A stretch of 64,000 nt of DNA from Paragonimus westermani (Eukaryota; Platyhelminthes; Trematoda; Plagiorchiida; Troglotrematidae). The notes beneath the pieces are model-generated. The model did not search any database. It was given only the letters and a program-made list of their open reading frames with translations, and had not been told where the DNA came from. Where the stretch lies: the NCBI GenBank assembly GCA_008508345.1, contig QNGE01000269.1, forward strand, positions 209,552 to 273,551, in the 5' to 3' direction. The position numbers were made by a program, and so were the translations under genes. Positions 42,849-64,000 of this stretch are shown in pieces (the first letter of the stretch is position 1; each line of letters begins with the position of its first letter).

Positions 42849-43990
42849 TCATGACCATGGCAACCCGACCGGTTGTTTCAACCACTTCTGTGCACATAAC
42901 GTCGGTTGGTAAGTTCGAATGAGAATCGCTTCGCAAAAGGCTAGTAACTTCGGATTTCGGTTGCGCAACAGTATCTTGAATGAGTTAACCGGGTCAACTT
43001 GATGACCTGTTGTCATGAGATGTTTTGCAATCGATGACGTTGGATTTCGAGTAGTCAATGCGTCAATTTGGGACTGGTGCGTCATCTGATGTTTCAACCA
43101 CTTCGGGATGTGTTCCGCGACTCGCTGTGATAGTTGTCGGTCTGTTCTGCCTATGTAAACGTCACTGCAACTGCAAGTGAACTGGTACACAACATGGGAG
43201 ACAGAACAGTTTGACAAACTACTTTTGCGTTTTCGGAGAACTGGTCCACTAGTGGTATGAAATAAGCGCAACTGCGCAGCCGCATACGTTCGAGCTAGGG
43301 CTGATTTTAATTTGTGCTTTATGTCATTGGATAGATGATCACCCTTGAATGGCAAGAATAGGCAAACATCCTTCTTTTGAACCGTCAGTACAGGCTCAGA
43401 GCTCTTCTTCACCGTATTATGTGCATCAATGAATTTGTCGGGGTATCCATTTGTTAGTAAAGTTCGCCTCAACAACTCCTGTTCTGTCTTCAGAGTGTCC
43501 GGAGTACAAATACGTTTGGCTCTCTGAAACAGTGTCTTAACTAAACCCCGTTTGTATGCAATAGGAGCAAAACTTGAAAACTGCATATATTGACCACCCC
43601 AAGTTGCTTTGCGGTGAACTGAGCGTTGTAACGTACCATCCGCGCGTCTAGTAATAAGTACATCCAAAAAAGGTAAACTATTGTTCGATTCCACTTCGTG
43701 AGATAAAGATAGGTTTGGGTGAATATTATTGAGAAAGTTAAAGAACAAGTCAAAATGAATAGCGTCAGTAAAAATTAAAATATCATCAACGTATCTTTTG
43801 TACAATAACGAATCGGCTATATAATCCGGGACTTGCCGCTCAATCATTCCTAAGAAGATAGCTGCTAGTGTTGGGCCCAACGGACTAGCCATGGCAACAC
43901 CGTCTATCTGTTTGTATGCAAGTCCCTCAAAATAACAAGCTGAACACACAAGTTCAATTTGAATACATGCACGATCAACTGAAGGAACTG
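42849..43990 (-). mobile_element. Penelope-like element, 5' truncated: RT C-terminal part + GIY-YIG endonuclease
   Basis: A single open frame of 366 codons (43949-42849) encodes the second half of a Penelope-like polyprotein. RT motif B is YKQIDGVAMASPLGP (residues 12-26) and the catalytic motif C is YKRYVDDILIF (50-60). These are followed by SLPFLDVLITRRADG (91-105) and the thumb-like KATWGGQY segment. The GIY-YIG endonuclease spans about 250-345: VVYQFTCSCSDVYIGRTDRQ, H310 and E340 in FCEAILIRTYQP. It ends LKQPVGLPWS. Homology to the family continues about 40 bp upstream of the first ATG (TVPSVDRACIQIELV), where a TAG stops the frame. The N-terminal half with RT motif A is missing, as is common for 5'-truncated copies. 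Both catalytic signatures look intact, so this insertion is fairly young but not autonomous. Confidence 0.9.
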
Positions 43991-45529
43991 TCGCCTACAT
44001 CTCCTGATGAGACAGGCTGGTTCCGTGCAACTGAAGTTCGCCCTGTTCAGGTCATGCTATAACGATGAAAACCTATCAAACTGGAAAAGGGGGAGTGTTA
44101 GCTCTTCAGCAGTTGTAGCTGGGCGTATCCGGAAGAATAAGTCGTTCGTGTGTAATAGAAGAGTTAGGAAACCGGAATCTAACTTCCCATAACGTGTTCT
44201 TCGGCAATTTGGAGAAATTAAACGGTGCACCGTCCTACGGTGAGCGATTATTCATACATCAACTCGGCCATCCGTTATACCCCGCAAGCTCCCACTGTTT
44301 CAATTTTTGGTTCGCAAATCATTTCTACTGTGCTATCAAGATTTTGATAAGTATTAAGATGTTGTTATATAATTTCGTTATTTCTGTGTATTCGGTACAC
44401 TGCTACTTATATGTCACATATGTATTTTTTATTGACGTTATTCAGTTTATGATTATATGTGAATTTCACGTCAAAGGACCCAATAGGAACTATGTCAGTG
44501 TTCCTAGGTGGTTACTAGACAACCTCCTCATGTTGTAATTTGGACGGTAGAAGTATTCGCCAAATAATCACGGTTTGTCTTTCTGCTAGTAGGTTTAGCC
44601 ACTAGGACTTACTGCAAGAACACATACGATCTGTACTGTTCGTCCATAAAGACGAGTTATCTAAAGACATTATACTGTGACGTACCGATAAACCATTGCG
44701 TGAGTACTCACTTAGTCCCACAACGAAAGCACTGCCCATTTGAAAGAGCATTCATGGTTCACCTATTGGTCAACTGTATACGATACGGTAGACACGGTAG
44801 AGTGTCCAGTCACGCAAAGTGGTGACAGGCATGATATCGAATGACACTCAGCAAGTTTTACGTAGGTGACCGATGATGAAGAGCGAATGCACATCAGTAA
44901 AAGTACAGCCAGCCAAACGTACCAGCTGTACACTACTCGATACCAGGTTCAAGACTGCCAGCCGATTATAGTCGGTCCTGACCAGTTGTCTTATTCAACA
45001 TTACCAGATGTGTAAACATGAGTTGTGTGGCTGAGCCGACCTCTCTTTTATTCAGGAGTGTCTGCTTGTCACTGCGATCCGAATCCCTGTTGGATGTATT
45101 ACTTTAGCTCTGGTAGTAATTTGATACTTTATTTCATCGAAGTGATCCAAAAGGAGTTGAGTCAAATGTTGTTGTCATATCGGGATCAATCGGATAACGT
45201 GGTAGTGCGTCTGACTCTGAAGCGGACGGCAGAGTTCAGGGAGTTTTAAGTTTAGAGCTTCACTGAGGCCAGTAAAACGACTATGTTTTACGTTATCTCG
45301 AGTAGTGTGCTCAGACGCTCGAAAACCAGTCAGAGATACCTACTGGAAAGCATTCGTGCGTAAACATGCAAAGCTTAACGAATTAATGTCGTCACGTACC
45401 ACGTGAGTCTCGGGTTAGCTAAGCGAACATCCTAGGAATATCTTGTAATGCCTAATTTGATTGGTGCACATCGCGTAGAGTTTTCGTGCCACAGTTTGAA
45501 CCTATCTCAAAGAACGGTTTTAGGAGGAT
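43991..45529. other. No recognisable gene
   Basis: The frame at 44194-44538 has a hydrophobic Phe/Tyr/Ile-rich stretch typical of AT-rich non-coding DNA. No motif was seen. Confidence 0.4.
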
Positions 45530-55180: not shown

Positions 55181-55750
55181 TCAAACCTCACTAACGTTGG
55201 GCATTAAGTTAGCAGGCGCTTCAGACTCATGGCCACATGTGTCAGGCTTCCCAACAAGACCGGAGATAGAGCGAACATCACTGTTTTCAGGTTCCAAAGT
55301 GGGTTTAAGTTGCACCAGTTGCAATTTGCTCGGCTTCCGTCTACTCGAACCACTTGGACCGGATCGGGCGATAGGACTGGCAAATTTGCTGGACTCCGCA
55401 AGGCCGTTTAACACAACTATTGGGCGTGTCATGTCTGAGTTGCCGTTTGGTACATCAGGGAGGTCATCAGCTGTTGTGATGATAGAATCGGTGTCTAATC
55501 GGGCAATTTTTGCCGGCTTCCCTGACTCATCAGTATCGGGCAAGCAGCGTATCCGTCCCAGATCACAAGTCCCCTCGTTAAGAGCTACTGAGAATTCCTC
55601 GTAATCCATTTCCGCTTCAAATAAAGCGGCATCTTCCCTGTCCCCGGCATCTTCGGGCCGCTTTTCGGACTCGCTTACACGAGCGCGCAGAAGTTGTTTG
55701 AGCTCTGTTACGCGAGAGGCTGGCTCCGATTCGATATCTGTTACAGAGAT
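55181..55750 (-). CDS. Zinc-finger gene, 3' visible exon (probable C-terminus)
   Basis: The acceptor is TTCTTCTAG before 55750, and the frame continues in phase 0 from the previous exon: ...YRDFMSK joins ISVTDIESEPASRVTELKQ. The 189 residues are mostly acidic and Ser/Pro-rich without a fold signature. There is a possible short coiled-coil at the start (RVTELKQLLRARVSESEK) and a basic SSRRKPSKL patch that might help nuclear localisation. The TGA at 55183-55181 is taken as the stop. An alternative donor at 55195 could extend the gene to 54774. Confidence 0.65.
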   Translation of the reverse strand: MSVTDIESEPASRVTELKQLLRARVSESEKRPEDAGDREDAALFEAEMDYEEFSVALNEGTCDLGRIRCLPDTDESGKPAKIARLDTDSIITTADDLPDVPNGNSDMTRPIVVLNGLAESSKFASPIARSGPSGSSRRKPSKLQLVQLKPTLEPENSDVRSISGLVGKPDTCGHESEAPANLMPNVSEV

Positions 55751-56023: not shown

Positions 56024-56905
56024 CTTAGACATAAAGTCTCGGTAAACCATTCGGTGCTGGTCAACCGCAAAGTCCAGTCGCGTGTGCACAGTCTGATGAT
56101 GATTCAACGCATCTTTGCTCGTTTGGAATGTTTGGTCACAATGGGGACAATCATAGGCCGGTAGGTGTATATGTGTACGAACAATGTGGGCCCGAGCTGC
56201 GCTTGCATAATTGGATAGAAACGGACAAGCGGAGCAGGCATAAACAAGAGCGCAACCCTCGGTAATTTTGCCGCTAGGGTCCGCATTCATCCGAATAACA
56301 TAGGGCTGGGCTTCGTCCGATTCATTATTACCACTTTCTCGTTCATGCGGTTCGGATACGAAGTCGAACTCAGTGTCCTCTGTCTGATCATCGAACGCAC
56401 ACGAGGCAACTGTGCTGTACAGACTGCTGCGGAATTTGTCCAAGCCGGCAGTGGAAGATCGGTGCCCCGCACCAGCAGTCGACGCAGCAGACGGAAGTGC
56501 TGTCAGCTTCTCTGAGTCTCGGTGTTGTGTTGAGGGTTGATAAACCTGGGAAGCAAACTGCCCCGTTTGTCGAACCAGACCGACAGCGGATGCTCGTCGT
56601 GCACCGAATTGAGACAAATCCATCTCGGCCAACGGTTTGATCACCGTGCCTTTCCATTTCATTTTAGCTAAGTGCAACAAGACGTGGTTAGGCAACAGAG
56701 TGTTATCTTCTCGACTTAGGCGACTGCAGTGCATGGCAGCTGCTTTATAACGTTCCGGAACCTTGGCATGCACTCCAAGAATATGTTTGCGGATATCACC
56801 CATCCCATGGGGAGAAGAGGAAGAGCAACCGGAACAACAGAAATAACGTCGGCCACGACGTCGGCTGATAAATACCTTCAGCGAACTGTACACGTCCATT
56901 TTTTC
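56024..56905 (-). CDS. Zinc-finger gene, middle exon: module 4 and two C2H2 fingers
   Basis: 294 codons, phase 0 at both ends (acceptor TTCTGCAG before 56905; donor AAG/GTAAGC at 56024). Residues 1-85 complete module 4. KMDVYSS is followed by a finger C24-x2-C27-x13-H41-x4-H46 with the signature GDIRKHILGVH, then CSRLSRE and LLHLAK. Residues 100-215 are a Ser/Thr/Glu-rich linker. Two ordinary C2H2 fingers follow: C224-x2-C227-x12-H240-x4-H245 and C253-x2-C256-x12-H269 (or H270)...H274. The fingers suggest DNA or protein binding in the nucleus; the target is unknown. The apparent longer frame up to 57001 is intron read-through. Confidence 0.88.
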
Positions 56906-59190
56906 CTGCAGAATGAAAAGAGGACGGCAACTGTTGTAATGTGTGTGTGGGGGGAATGAAATAGAACTCGGCAGAAAAAGGGTAAAATCGAAGACAAACA
57001 TGTACAGTTCGAAAATTTCGGACAGGAACTAATGGGGAACAGTCTAATGAAAAATAAAACACACATGGATACGGGACTATCAATGGAATACCAAGCTGTT
57101 CTCGTAAATCAAGCAATACGTAACGGAACCGATGAAAGAAAGTGAAACTGACTTCCGGAAACTACTGACAAAGTAAGAAAATGCGAGTTTGCCCCTTTTT
57201 AACCCCACGTATGAAGCCGAGTTTGTTGTCAAATGAAACTACACTACCGATCTGAATAACAGCATCTGCGGCGTGTGTTAGGCGGCCGGAAGATGGATGA
57301 TACCCCAGTGTTGTAAATAAACGATCGCATTGGATGGACTGCCTGAACCGTTTCCAATGCGTAAACGCTGAAACCCACGCATGGGGTGGCCCAAACAGGC
57401 AAACAGGAATTAAGATTGGAAACAGATATTCAGTAGCAGAGATCAAGTGAGTTCAGTCGCTTACTGGTGAAGGTTGAACCATGCAATAAGGACATCAGCT
57501 AGAGTACATAGCATAGATAAGACAACGGATAATTCACCTTAAAAAGATAAGGAGAGCTACGGGTAAGTTAGTCCCGATACACGAAAAACTTTTGTCGACT
57601 GAGCAAGAGTAACACAACGCTGGACTGTAGATGGTTGGGTATGCTGTTGTCAGGCTTGGGTGACGTACAGTACACCGTTTTTAATGAAGCGACCATAATT
57701 AACAGTGGCCAACGAAGATGCTGTTCAGTGTGGTTGCTAACGGCTGGAAGAGAGCGGAGAGTGGTCGGACGACAACAGGGTCACGAGCAGTGAACGCCCT
57801 GACCACCCTACAGAGTAAGATAGGGAGATGTCATTTACTAGGCTGAGGGAGTTCGCGATCATCTGTACCGCCGACTGGAAACGAATTCCGAAATGAAAAC
57901 GTGTCGCAGCCAATGATGAACATGTATCCGCAAAATTGTTGATTCTTCTTCCACCTTATGAACTTCCAGTGTTTTCGGTTAGTTTTTCTTCAGTGTAAAC
58001 GTGTACCCATTGATTAAGCAGTCAGGGGTGGTACAACGCACTAACAACAATCGAGTGGCTGAATATACAGGCTGTGATATAACACATTAAGAAGCACTGG
58101 CCAAACCATGAATTCCAATGAAGGACACTTATGCCATGGTGCATGTTGGAAAATCGTGTGCCAGGTCAGAAAACATTGCCTAATCAGTGCAGATAATTCT
58201 GTGCGACGCAAAGGTATTAATGCCGACGATCGTTAGATGGAAACAGGACGCCAATGCAAATTGCTAAAACTGTGTAAACAGATTGAATATCAAAAAGGAG
58301 AAATGCATGAAAAACCGGTTTGATGCGACCACAGAAGTGCATGAACGGTAAACAATCTACCATGTGCAAGCACGCAAACACCCGCACAGGTAGGCAATCA
58401 CAGCTAGAAGCCTTGAGAAATGCGTTTTTCATTCCATTTGCTAGGGGCTGTTGACGGTGTACTAGTCCAGTTGCATTGCATGCATGACGAATACGTTGTG
58501 GAATTTGTGGACGACGGATGGGTAAATGGAGGCACGCAAAGACAACTACAGAGAAATACAATACAGCGTACATAAATAAGATAACCTTACGCACGCATAC
58601 GTAAAGTGATCTATCTACAGGCGCAATCCAGTATGAGCAAGAACTCTAACGAACAATGAAAACATGTTGAGGGTGCAAACAGCATTACAAGTGATAGGAG
58701 TAGCGTCTAGAATTGCAAAATATGTCAATGATCTGGCGAAAGAACTATGTAGGTAGACGACTGGATTGGGTTAATCAGTGACGATCTCGGAGGCCTCCTA
58801 TAATTACCTGCTTAGCCGGATTTGATTGTCAACCGAAAGTAAATTCAGTTCGAAAGCCTCTTCACCGTCACTGGAATTTAGTTAAAATATACTAACAGTG
58901 CGGCTAACAGAAATGCAAAAATCGTCAAACGGCCCTGAACATGTCGAGTTACACACTGGTTCGCCGTTTAAAGTCAATGCCCGGGTTCGGGATGCTCAAA
59001 TATCTCTAGATACCACCATCCATCCGATTTGGAGCAAATAACCTGACGGGAGTAAAGAAATAGACAGAACTTAGCTTCTATGTGCACTTTAAAATGCTTG
59101 TTAGTTGGACGCATAAATTAAGCGAGTCAAGACGATCAGCGAGGCCGCATCGTGAACAGAATGCCAGCGTGTGTTGAGAAAGAGACTTAC
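56906..59190 (-). other. Intron of zinc-finger gene (2285 bp)
   Basis: Donor GAG/GTAAGT at 59191/59190 and acceptor CATTCTGCAG/GAA at 56906/56905, phase 0. The splice is supported independently of its consensus: joining PILE to EKMDVYSS recreates the KMxxYS region of the repeated module (compare EFLEHKMQLYS in module 2). Nothing else is recognised inside, apart from short chance frames at 57162-57446 and 58217-58594. Confidence 0.85.
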
Positions 59191-61944
59191 CTCTAGAATG
59201 GGAAAGTAGCTTGGTGGACAGTAGCCTTCAACGAGACTGTGCAGTGCTTCAGACGAATAAGGCAAATCAATCACTCTTTCTACTTCCTCGTTTGGAGAAG
59301 ACTGCGCCAAAGACAAATGAGACAGAGGGTCTTCTATGCTTTTAGAAGCCTTTTTGTCAGTCGATTCTGGAGACTCTTTGTCCTCCACAATTGTCAATCT
59401 GTCATCCTCGACAGAGTCGCGAGGGCCGCCAAAACCATCCGCAGAGCTGACAGACTGAGCCTCAGAATTATCAACCGATACTGAATTATCCATCGTATCA
59501 GACTGACTGGGTTCAAAGTTATCCTCCGTTGTCGCATACTTCCCGGAAGCTGGTGCATTTAAACCTAAATCCCGCAACGGCCGCAGTGGAGGTAAGGAAG
59601 AGCTGGGGCGACTGACTGGACAACTAGCCGGAGGGAGATTGGTTAGTTTGATCGGTCGATCCATAGCCAATCGGAGAAGCATATCATCTGGATAGATTTC
59701 GAAATCGTATTCACGAGTGATCCGAGAAGCCTGACAACAAAGTGTTATGAACTCATGCGGAATTCGGGCATGCACGCCCATTACATGACGTCGGCTATCA
59801 GCTAACGTGGCCGCGCGAATCTTGCTATCTGGCTGCCTGGTTGTCATGAACAAACGTCCACAAGGGCATCGAAAAGCGATCGTACGGTCGCCCTTACAAA
59901 TGCGACTCATGGTGTAGGTGGAGTAGATACGCATTTTGGAAAGTATTTCATCCATGTGGGCTTTTGTTGCTCCGGCTTGGTTCATTAACTGCCTTAAGAC
60001 CGGCTCTGAAAAGGGTAGTGCAAGGTGTACCACACGATCAGCTCCCTCAAAGCCCGGAATCGAAGGCAAAGTATTCAAATCCAGGCTGTCTACCACGTTA
60101 GCTGGTTGCGGTTCGAATAAAGAGTCCGGGGAATCCGGGGACCGCGGAGGTGTTGCTGGAGAAAGATTTATAGTTGAAGGACTGGCAACCACAGGTGGGC
60201 CAACGACGGCGTTCGTACCCTGGGCATTGACTGAATCTGGTGGAACTGGGGGACGAATGCGTACAGTGACACGATTTTTTGAGCCCGGGACCACGGCAGT
60301 GAAGTGAGACACATAGGTGTCCTGAGGTTTGTGCTCTGAATCCGAATTCGAAGTACTGGACACAACTGAGTCGAGTTCTGTGAACCCGTTATGACTCGTC
60401 CCATCGTCCGGTGAAGGAGAGCGACTTCCCGTTGAGATGAATGCTTCCGAACCATGTTGGCGGTGCATATAGTCTTTAGCGAGACGAGCCAATTTCTCAT
60501 CGGAAAATAAAATAAATTCAACTGGATCCAACCGAGAAGCCTGGAGGCAATGTCGAAAGTGTTTCGTAGAAATGCCACAGTGTGAACCGAGGATGTGTTT
60601 GCGAACGTCAGCGAGCGCATGTGGTGAGGAATAGCTACAATGATTGCATCGATAGCGTCGTAGACCACCCCGCGTATCAACAATTACTGATAAACGACTA
60701 TACAATTGCATTTTGTGTTCCAGAAACTCCCGTGTACCGATTGGTAGATGACGTGTTAGCCGGCGCAGAATTATGATAGAGTATGGTAATGGAACACGTC
60801 GGCGACCGGCTTCCAACAAACGGGGTTTCATTTGCCTCATTGCTAATTGCTCCTGTACTTCTTGAAACTTTTCTTCGCTCTTGGGCAAATAAGTGAATCG
60901 CAAACAATCTTTCAAATACTCGCGTGGAACCTCCAGGTGAACGGTGAGCAAATGACGCTTGAAGTCACCGAGGCCGTAGGGAAACACTTTATCACACTCT
61001 GGGCACACTGGAATACGGCGGTGATTCTCTTTCCCCAAAATTCGGACGAAGTATGAAGAGAACTGGTACATCTTTGTCACTAGGGAATCGAGCACGTTCG
61101 AACGAATGTGTTTGGACAGTTCACTACGAAATTTGGTCTCGTCAAATGGAAATGATACCAAATCATCCCCAGCGCGGCCTGTATCACATTTCTCATCGAA
61201 ATCTGGCTTTTCTGATGACTGCTCTGGGCCACCATGTGACTCGGGTACGGAATTCTCCGTTGGACCGTTCGACTGTGTCCCATCTCCATTATTACTAACC
61301 TGTGGACTGGTAAACTGTACAACGCTTGCAATCGCAGGAGCTGTCAGACTCGCCAGGGAGGATGCATTTATGCTGGTCAAAATATCCGCCGAAGCGGTCG
61401 AACTAGTAACATCGAATCCAGTTAGACCACTGAGGGCAGCAGCAGCCATCGCCGCAACCGCAGAGGCAGCTTCAGATGTGACATCATGTCCACCAGCACC
61501 CGTCAGTTCTTGTAGAGTCTTCAAAGCAGCAGCACTCTGTAGCAAGGAAATAGAAGAAGCATCACTGACCCCAGTCTGTTTTATCGAGTGCCATGACGAT
61601 GTGGTCACCGTGGAGACGGCAGGAGCGGGTCGAATGGACGGTAATATCGGTACCGTCGGAGTTATTTGCGTATAGTTCCGACCACAAGGACCGGCTAGCT
61701 TTGAAGCTGCCGGACGAGCCAATGCGGCCAAATTCATAGGTGATTCTGTCTCCTCATCATTCTCCGGGGATGATGGCCACATTGAGTTCACATAGAAAGG
61801 AACAAACGAATTCGTTTTGGACACGGGTGTGCTAGACACGGAAGGTGAACCTGGTACGAAGGACGCACGGGAAGAGTCCGAAGTTGCCGATTGGACCTTC
61901 GAATCGAGAAAGTCAACATGGAGTCTCTCGTGTATCACAATGGC
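59191..61944 (-). CDS. Zinc-finger gene, large exon: modules 1-3 and start of module 4
   Basis: 918 codons, phase 0, from an acceptor TCTCATTGCAG before 61944 to donor GAG/GTAAGT at 59191. The upstream ATG at 61974 lies in the intron. Residues 1-265 are Ser/Pro/Ala-rich, with an Ala-rich tract around 158-172. Module 1 spans about 265-375, finger C314-x2-C317-x13-H331-x4-H336 (GDFKRHLLTVH). Module 2 spans about 385-495, C433-x2-C436-x13-H450-x4-H455 (ADVRKHILGSH). Module 3 spans about 638-765. It is degenerate: C693-x-C695, then 24 residues, then H720-x4-H725 (ADSRRHVMGVH). Module 4 begins at about 891 (VIDLPYSSEAL) and continues in the next exon. Linkers are acidic and Ser/Pro-rich. It is probably a nuclear regulator of a flatworm-restricted family. 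The 5' exons are not found. Confidence 0.9.
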
Positions 61945-64000
61945 CTGCAATGAGATAAGAATGGGTGAGTCCAAGTTAGGCTATGAAAACTCCCATGAGG
62001 TGTAATTTGAAGAAGGGAACAGACAACACATTGGTCAAAATGCCTATCATAAGAGAAGAAAGTGAAGTCAGTACAACAGTCAAGCATGTTTCAATAAGGG
62101 GTAGAAGTTAACGGTGTATAGAAGAATGGAGATAAACTGTCCATTTCGGTACGTATTTCTCAATGCTAACTGACTGTGATTGGACTGCAACACGGAGAAA
62201 CGGTAGCTCGAAAGTCACACAAAACACGTTATACAGAACACTACTATATGGTATAAGCTTGTAATTACTACTGCTGCGACTTGAACTATGAATTGCAAAG
62301 AATTGACGACCATAACAATGCAAGAGGGCCACAGGGAGGTGGACAGGCCATCGTGACTCAGAAAGTTTTCTGCCACTGATGCGAACAGATCACAGGGTCC
62401 AAAACAAGCAGATGACAATATCCGACCACAATCAACGAAAAAACGAGTTTCAGAAGACGAGCCTGAGCCAGTAGTTGGTCAAACACCCACGGCCTGTATC
62501 TACGATACTGAGATCATACCTTAGAGCGAAGTCTGGTAATTCAAACACTCTGACAACGGACGAACTTGCAAGCAATCGGTAACCATAAGAACGACCGGTG
62601 GCATACAGTGTTTTGAAGCCAGGATATGGCAGTTAGTCACAAACCAGCTTCGGGTTTCTTGATCTGTTTGATCATACCTGTAATTACGAAGTTAAAGCAC
62701 GAAGTAAGTTGTGTCAACAAAAACAATCAGACTGCTTCAATTGTGTCCAAAAAGCGTTAGGCAGTATGAAGCAGCAAATGCAGATCCGAGCAGTGAAAAT
62801 CGATGGCTCGAAAAAGTCGTGCACACGGAGAACGTGTAACGTAGTAGAACAGAAGTAGCATACATATAAATTCAATAGCCCTCAGAGGTCTTGGTAAAGA
62901 TGAGCGAGACTCGATACCTATCTCTTGAAGGATTCACAAGATAGCGCACTTCATAGAGATTCTGTAGGAGTTTTGCTAAGTCATTATAACAGATGAGTTG
63001 CTCTCACCAATAGAATGAAGCGAAAGTTGACGACTGAAGCTGTGACCAGGGATTGCTGATCTTAATCGCACATACTCCACGAGAGACCACCCACAGATAA
63101 TCAGCAAAGGATGTGTAATCAATCGATACTGAGGAGTAAGCAATGAAAAGTGCAACGATTAATTTCATCTACTCCAATTGAGTGGATAGTCAACTAGAGC
63201 ACGCATGTAAATCTGCGATGCAACCGTCTCGCGTCAAGTTGGAGTCAACCAGCTGACGCTAATCCCTTTGCCTATTGGTTTATCCGACCGTTATGAAGCG
63301 GACCGTAACAGCCGTTGTGAACGTGTCTCCTCGTGATCGGATAAAAGCATACCGGAGCTTGACACTGTTCAGGGCTGTAGACGACAGGGACCGCCAATTC
63401 GCTAGGTCACGCAGTGGTGCATGAGCCATCGCACTAAGGGTGAAAGTAAACGCAAGAAATCTAGCTTCCTTAGTGTTTATGTGGTCACAGTGACTTAATG
63501 ATGGTTGAGGAAGTGCGGTGGGATCAATCCTCCTAGGTGTCACCTGGGACGATGACATGCATCACAGACCCAAGTTCCTGACACAGTGGGGTTTTGGGAC
63601 AAGATGTTCGCAAGTGGACGTTGCAAAGTGACCCCGATTTCGGACGGACCTGGTCGACGCTTTTGACATCGCGATAGCTCATCGATCGATCGACCAACGG
63701 GCGTGTTTGGGATGTGTACTCGTGGTGAATTCAGAGTCCAGATTTTCCTAAAAACAGAAACCATTGAAACGTGCCCTAGGCTGCACAGCAGAGGATTGAG
63801 GTAAGAAGCTAGCGAAGTCGAATATCGTTAAAGCGTTACCGAAATGACGACTGGTTCGTCAATCCGGCTCGTGCACATTAAAATGGCACATGGACAGGTG
63901 GCTAGCTTGCACAAACGTTGCGACTGTCACGAAAATAGGACTTCAGAAACGACAAACAAGATCAACAGCTAGCTGAATAGTATACACATTAGATCGGCCT
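61945..64000. other. Upstream intron of the zinc-finger gene; no exon recognised
   Basis: The acceptor at 61945 means at least one more exon lies upstream, but none was identified to the window end. A short open run ending in a GTGAGA donor-like site near 63005 is too small to call. The frames at 63280-63764 have no motif. Confidence 0.45.

Follow-up and report, generated by a model that had tools for sequence, protein, structure and literature searches.

Four copies of a probable flatworm-specific zinc-binding domain in one predicted regulator of Paragonimus westermani

Results

A gene on the minus strand of a 64,000-nucleotide stretch of Paragonimus westermani DNA (contig QNGE01000269.1, 209,552-273,551; hereafter the window, in whose positions all gene coordinates are given) encodes a protein that carries four copies of a unit of 111-124 amino acids (aa) built around a Cys2-His2 (C2H2) finger. 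We consider it probable that this unit represents an as yet undescribed zinc-binding domain, some 110-125 residues long and so far restricted to flatworms, which stands fourfold in a nuclear DNA-binding regulator.

A sequence-only reading of this DNA had proposed four tandem copies of a unit of about 125 residues in one protein, spanning 56768..61160. That there are four copies was borne out by local alignment of all six unit pairs, which gave true scores of 81-176 against best shuffled scores of 44-52 (300 shuffles per pair; z 10.7-28.1). Likewise, hhalign matched the four position profiles, each of 35 rows (34 relatives and the window; 140 unit rows in total), with one another in all six pairs at 96.4-99.6% probability. 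Unit 1 (U1) lies at 60820..61152 (aa 265-375 of the part of the protein encoded in the window; finger at 61005-60937), U2 at 60457..60789 (aa 386-496; finger at 60648-60580) and U3, which has a longer finger loop, at 59647..60018 (aa 643-766; finger at 59868-59770). U4 is split by an intron into 59191..59265 (aa 894-918) and 56648..56905 (aa 919-1004; finger at 56836-56768). Only U1 and U2 are adjacent, with 10 residues between them; U3 and U4 follow after 146 and 127 residues, so that "tandem" describes the first pair only. The proposed span ends inside the last unit, and the gene continues beyond it. A unit hidden Markov model, trained on units that include the window's four, was run on all six frames of the window; it recovered U1, U2, U3 and the downstream part of U4, and no fifth unit (next best independent E-value 0.097; best on reversed sequence 0.61).

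We examined the motifs of the unit across the profile rows. The spacing C-x2-C-x13-H-x4-H, which had been proposed for the unit as a whole, was found by regular expression in U1 (35/35 rows), U2 (35/35) and U4 (34/35); the single U4 exception, the relative P0016, was a mis-parse on an extra Cys and fits the pattern when read directly. U3 has C-x1-C-x24-H-x4-H in 26 of 35 rows and x25 in nine, which across these aligned rows is a consistent variant and not an error. The finger helix D-x-[RK]-[RK]-H (pattern xxxDx[RK][RK]H) is present in 140 of 140 unit rows. When 20 units picked out of the 140 were aligned, six columns were invariant (M27, C48, C51, D61, H65 and H70), five inside the finger and one outside. 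The putative zinc ligands C48, C51, H65 and H70 were unchanged in all 20 units, and from these ligands we infer that the units bind zinc.

The flanking motifs were less uniform than proposed. KM sits 25-27 residues past the start of the lead-in, not the suggested 24-26. The Pro at +4 is found in U1, U3 and U4 and is Ser in U2, while SRL is present in U2 and U4 and becomes SRI in U3. The closing L-x-R-LA occurs in U2 and U3 and reads L-x-H-LA in U4. U1 has neither SRL nor the closing motif; its C-terminal flank is divergent, and no other unit has diverged as far (32-34% identity to paralogue B, described below). The proposed consensus over-generalises both U1 and U3. In 30 proteins, the flanks nevertheless hold many invariant columns, clearest for U2 and U3, and few parts of the unit are as conserved as the helix that follows the finger.

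AlphaFold2, given U2 alone (128 residues), predicted a single compact domain with a predicted local distance difference test score (pLDDT) of 91.5 and a predicted template modelling score (pTM) of 0.83. The predicted architecture would comprise two strands and two helices, a beta hairpin, the C2H2-type finger and two further helices, together forming one body round the zinc. This model agrees with the earlier suggestion of one larger fold around the zinc site, as opposed to a lone finger with disordered flanks. When U1-U3 were predicted, most ten-residue blocks scored 79-97, falling to 56 close to the U1 end and to 70 at the U2 end, and most linker residues scored below 50, so that the linkers are predicted to be disordered. 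The units are basic (+5 to +10), whereas the lead-in and the two linkers are acidic (-8 to -13) and consist to about one third of Ser, Thr and Pro.

These results bear on whether the units could be C2H2 fingers of the ordinary type, only slightly lengthened, whose flanks are incidental, an explanation that we regard as very improbable. The finger core does share with classical fingers (zf-C2H2/zf-C2H2_4) the Cys-Cys-His-His ligands, a beta hairpin followed by a helix, the H-x4-H spacing and, in most units, a hydrophobic residue three before the first His; there are weak matches to the Pfam zf-C2H2_4 and ZNF462 models, and the finger contains all but one of the six invariant columns. However, classical fingers are spaced C-x2-4-C-x12-H-x3-5-H and fold independently over about 25-30 residues. 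The units have x13, or C-x1-C with x24 or x25 in U3, in place of x12, score below the Pfam cut-off, and are predicted to belong to a fold spanning about 110-128 residues, whose flanking helices are conserved, AlphaFold2 having returned a single domain over the 128 residues of U2. The many invariant flank columns also argue against incidental flanks, as does the predicted packing of the U2 flanks with the finger at pLDDT of at least 90, the exception being the divergent C-terminal flank of U1.

Comparison with known families supported the view that the unit is not a named domain. No Pfam model reached its cut-off on a unit where bits were shown (best 20.2 against 27, zf-C2H2_4 on the protein of the first exon in the window). 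Twenty single units gave weak matches to 17 families (best E 0.0008; bits listed for U2 only), and the sole match above cut-off was of P0016 to zf-C2H2_jaz (22.8 against 22.6 bits), which falls on a classical finger of the C-terminal part and not on a unit. Unit motif strings found no match in the open-licence PMC literature, and no description of the domain was found there in titles or abstract beginnings among the matches listed. On these open-literature searches and Pfam, the domain is apparently undescribed.

We next considered how widely the unit occurs. Three protein-database searches, which rest on shared five-residue words and scored 7986, 4346 and 7977 candidates (in the first and third, those sharing most words), gave 41 different relatives. 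All 35 with a species name (one name per 90% cluster; 27 species) belong to what we take to be flatworms, and the other six were assigned to the family by their units. The flukes are represented by Schistosoma, Trichobilharzia, Heterobilharzia, Fasciola, Fasciolopsis, Echinostoma, Calicophoron, Clonorchis, Opisthorchis, Dicrocoelium and Paragonimus, the tapeworms by Echinococcus, Taenia, Mesocestoides, Hymenolepis, Rodentolepis, Anoplocephala, Spirometra, Schistocephalus and Dibothriocephalus, and free-living flatworms by Macrostomum lignano. No non-flatworm relative appeared among the scored candidates, even at E<=10 (the search of 7977), where all 34 hits were already known. The hits included no planarian or named monogenean, in a database whose coverage of planarians, monogeneans and other phyla is not established. 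This restriction fits the lineage specificity suggested from the window. Exactly four units above 40 bits were found in 34 of the 41 relatives; the other seven (P0003, P0004, P0012, P0025, P0026, P0027 and P0028) have two or three, some with a weaker extra match, and were interpreted as fragmentary sequences or the products of incomplete gene models.

Each position formed one group when 80 units (20 of the 35 rows) were placed in a tree, which was flagged for few columns and long branches; support was 100/100 for U1, 100/99 for U2, 100/98 for U3 and only 84/61 for U4. This grouping suggests that the four-unit array was probably in place before Macrostomum and the parasites diverged. Identity to Macrostomum is 45% in U1, 61% in U2 and 55% in U3, as against 9-13% in the lead-in and linkers, and comparison of these proteins shows selection maintaining the modules while the lead-in and linkers drift. 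In a tree of 35 concatenated arrays, for which the program warned of long branches meeting, paralogue B (nine rows, all named flukes, 100/100) stood apart from an A group that includes the window; the A and B labels are our own, and rows without a species name were labelled by similarity. Macrostomum joins paralogue B in U1 but the A group in U3, so its placement relative to the A/B split is unsure.

Several relatives showed further features. Paralogue B (P0017-P0025 and P0027-P0029; its 11 named members all flukes) has the same units, with one more residue in the U3 finger: x25 occurs in as many U3 rows (9/35) as there are B rows, and was seen in the four B rows printed. In the Macrostomum protein P0041, the first pair of C-terminal C2H2 fingers is followed by another at 1594-1662, which the unit profile matches weakly (9 bits); this may hint that the module arose from ordinary fingers. 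At its N-terminus, P0036 (Paragonimus skrjabini miyazakii) has a Spin-doc-type finger match under cut-off (residues 22-64), and for P0038 (Paragonimus) the database lists PF03221 and PF04218, which we take to be CENP-B-type helix-turn-helix families. These additional matches in P0036 and P0038 are perhaps gene-model fusions with nearby mobile elements.

Within the window, the gene was resolved into three coding exons joined by phase-0 GT..AG introns and summing to 1401 residues. Exon A (59191..61944; 918 aa, phase 0 at both ends, AG acceptor and GT donor) is open over its full length, its splice sites being taken from sequence, and encodes the acidic lead-in, U1, U2, U3 and the first 25 residues of U4. 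The intron in U4 (56906..59190; GT..AG, 2285 bp) is one across which the protein relatives are collinear. Exon B (56024..56905; 294 aa) encodes the remainder of U4, a linker and, downstream of U4, two classical C2H2 fingers at 56171..56236 and 56084..56149, and the last coding exon, exon C (55181..55750; 189 aa), encodes the protein tail and the stop at 55181. The nearest protein, P0036, is 96%, 91% and 83% identical over exons A, B and C, respectively; exon C aligns to its residues 1773-1961, and P0036 terminates at the same point. This identity by itself would place the window in a Paragonimus or a closely related fluke. At E 1e-3, nothing in the window matches the first 559 residues of P0036, and the 5' exons of the gene therefore probably lie outside it, past base 64000.

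Two other minus-strand open frames were noted. One of 381 aa at 42849-43994 has a partial reverse transcriptase match (PF00078, E 0.0015, under cut-off) and a tail that we take by eye to resemble a GIY-YIG nuclease; it is perhaps a Penelope-like retroelement. The other, of 142 aa at 58217-58645, lies within the intron that splits U4.

Discussion

We infer that the protein combines four integrated zinc modules with classical fingers and acts in the nucleus as a DNA-binding regulator. Full-length relatives have C2H2-like motifs upstream of the modules that match known C2H2 proteins; a classical array would thus precede the modules, outside the window in our gene, and the two classical fingers of exon B follow them. 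The four copies, each held distinct by selection, would sit as basic modules on acidic disordered linkers, each pressing a near-identical finger helix (D-x-R/K-R/K-H), and likewise the conserved helix after the finger, onto DNA, and several modules could jointly read a long composite site.

Several observations weigh against this proposal. With finger positions numbered backwards from the first zinc His, all units have small residues or Pro at -1 and +2; these positions are usually used for base reading, and such residues are poor in the usual code. That the helices of the four modules are almost the same could just as well reflect a protein partner common to them. The module gaps of 10, 146 and 127 residues are unlike the short linkers that classical finger arrays use, and U1 is not only the most divergent unit, lacking the SRL and closing motifs, but also the one whose end is least certain in the model. 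Because each helix offers an Asp and two basic residues but small residues or Pro at the base-reading positions, we entertain as a possible, if doubtful, alternative that the units bind other proteins or RNA: DNA would be found by the classical fingers, while the modules recruit partners by the same conserved face. A helix pattern common to all four units, the small residues at base-reading positions, the long flexible spacing and the strongly conserved post-finger helix would all be consistent with such a role, whereas the basic charge of the units and the likeness of the finger core, in weak matches, to DNA-binding C2H2 fingers speak against it. We regard it as very improbable that the module descends from the DNA-binding domain of a transposon, domesticated early in flatworm history.

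A bolder extension of the DNA-binding proposal is that flatworms invented a zinc-domain fold and use it in a phylum-specific chromatin-architecture factor, whose several classical fingers and four integrated modules would hold one long composite DNA site. We think this unlikely as it stands. According to the available portion of a review, CTCF is apparently missing altogether from Platyhelminthes (PMC10658182), which makes it fair to suggest that a phylum-specific multi-zinc protein might play an architectural part, and would give the idea special interest if true; the available portions of PMC10658181 and PMC7854359 held nothing further on CTCF in flatworms. More broadly, the unit adds to the zinc-finger world an apparently undescribed, strongly conserved domain, so far from one phylum that includes major parasitic worms, and carried fourfold in one protein by flukes, tapeworms and one free-living flatworm. 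It is a ready target for structure work and a way into how flatworms organise gene control, given the reported lack of CTCF (PMC10658182, in the portion available).

Among known structures, no convincing PDB match to the predicted U2 model was found, and only the finger resembles classical C2H2. Kaiso (ZBTB33; PDB 6dfa, 6df8 and others) scored in the noise range over less than half of the 128-residue model at 18% identity, the match beginning after the N-terminal helices. The top PDB sequence match of the unit profile, ZNF512 (PDB 2ctd), covers the finger only and is not significant (E 0.025). CTCF, an eleven-finger array with conserved recognition helices, is like this family a multi-finger protein and gave the best PDB match to the family's N-terminal array (E 1.7e-14); this likeness is generic, because Aart, presumably a designed protein, scores almost as well (E 1.2e-13), and among the best 60 of 177 PDB matches no best stretch covers the four modules. 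Closer in distribution are ZFP-1 and ZFP-1-1 of schistosomes, which the accessible part of their description presents as flatworm-restricted zinc-finger proteins in two groups, found in macrostomids, planarians and parasites (PMC5927768). As described there, ZFP-1 has three C2H2 fingers, the second with QRSNLQR and the third with RKDHLxR, and little homology outside the fingers (PMC5927768). These published motifs are absent from the units, whose helix reads xxxDx[RK][RK]H. The two kinds of protein share restriction to flatworms, and in spirit the ZFP-1 proteins are the closest published relatives of the four-unit protein.
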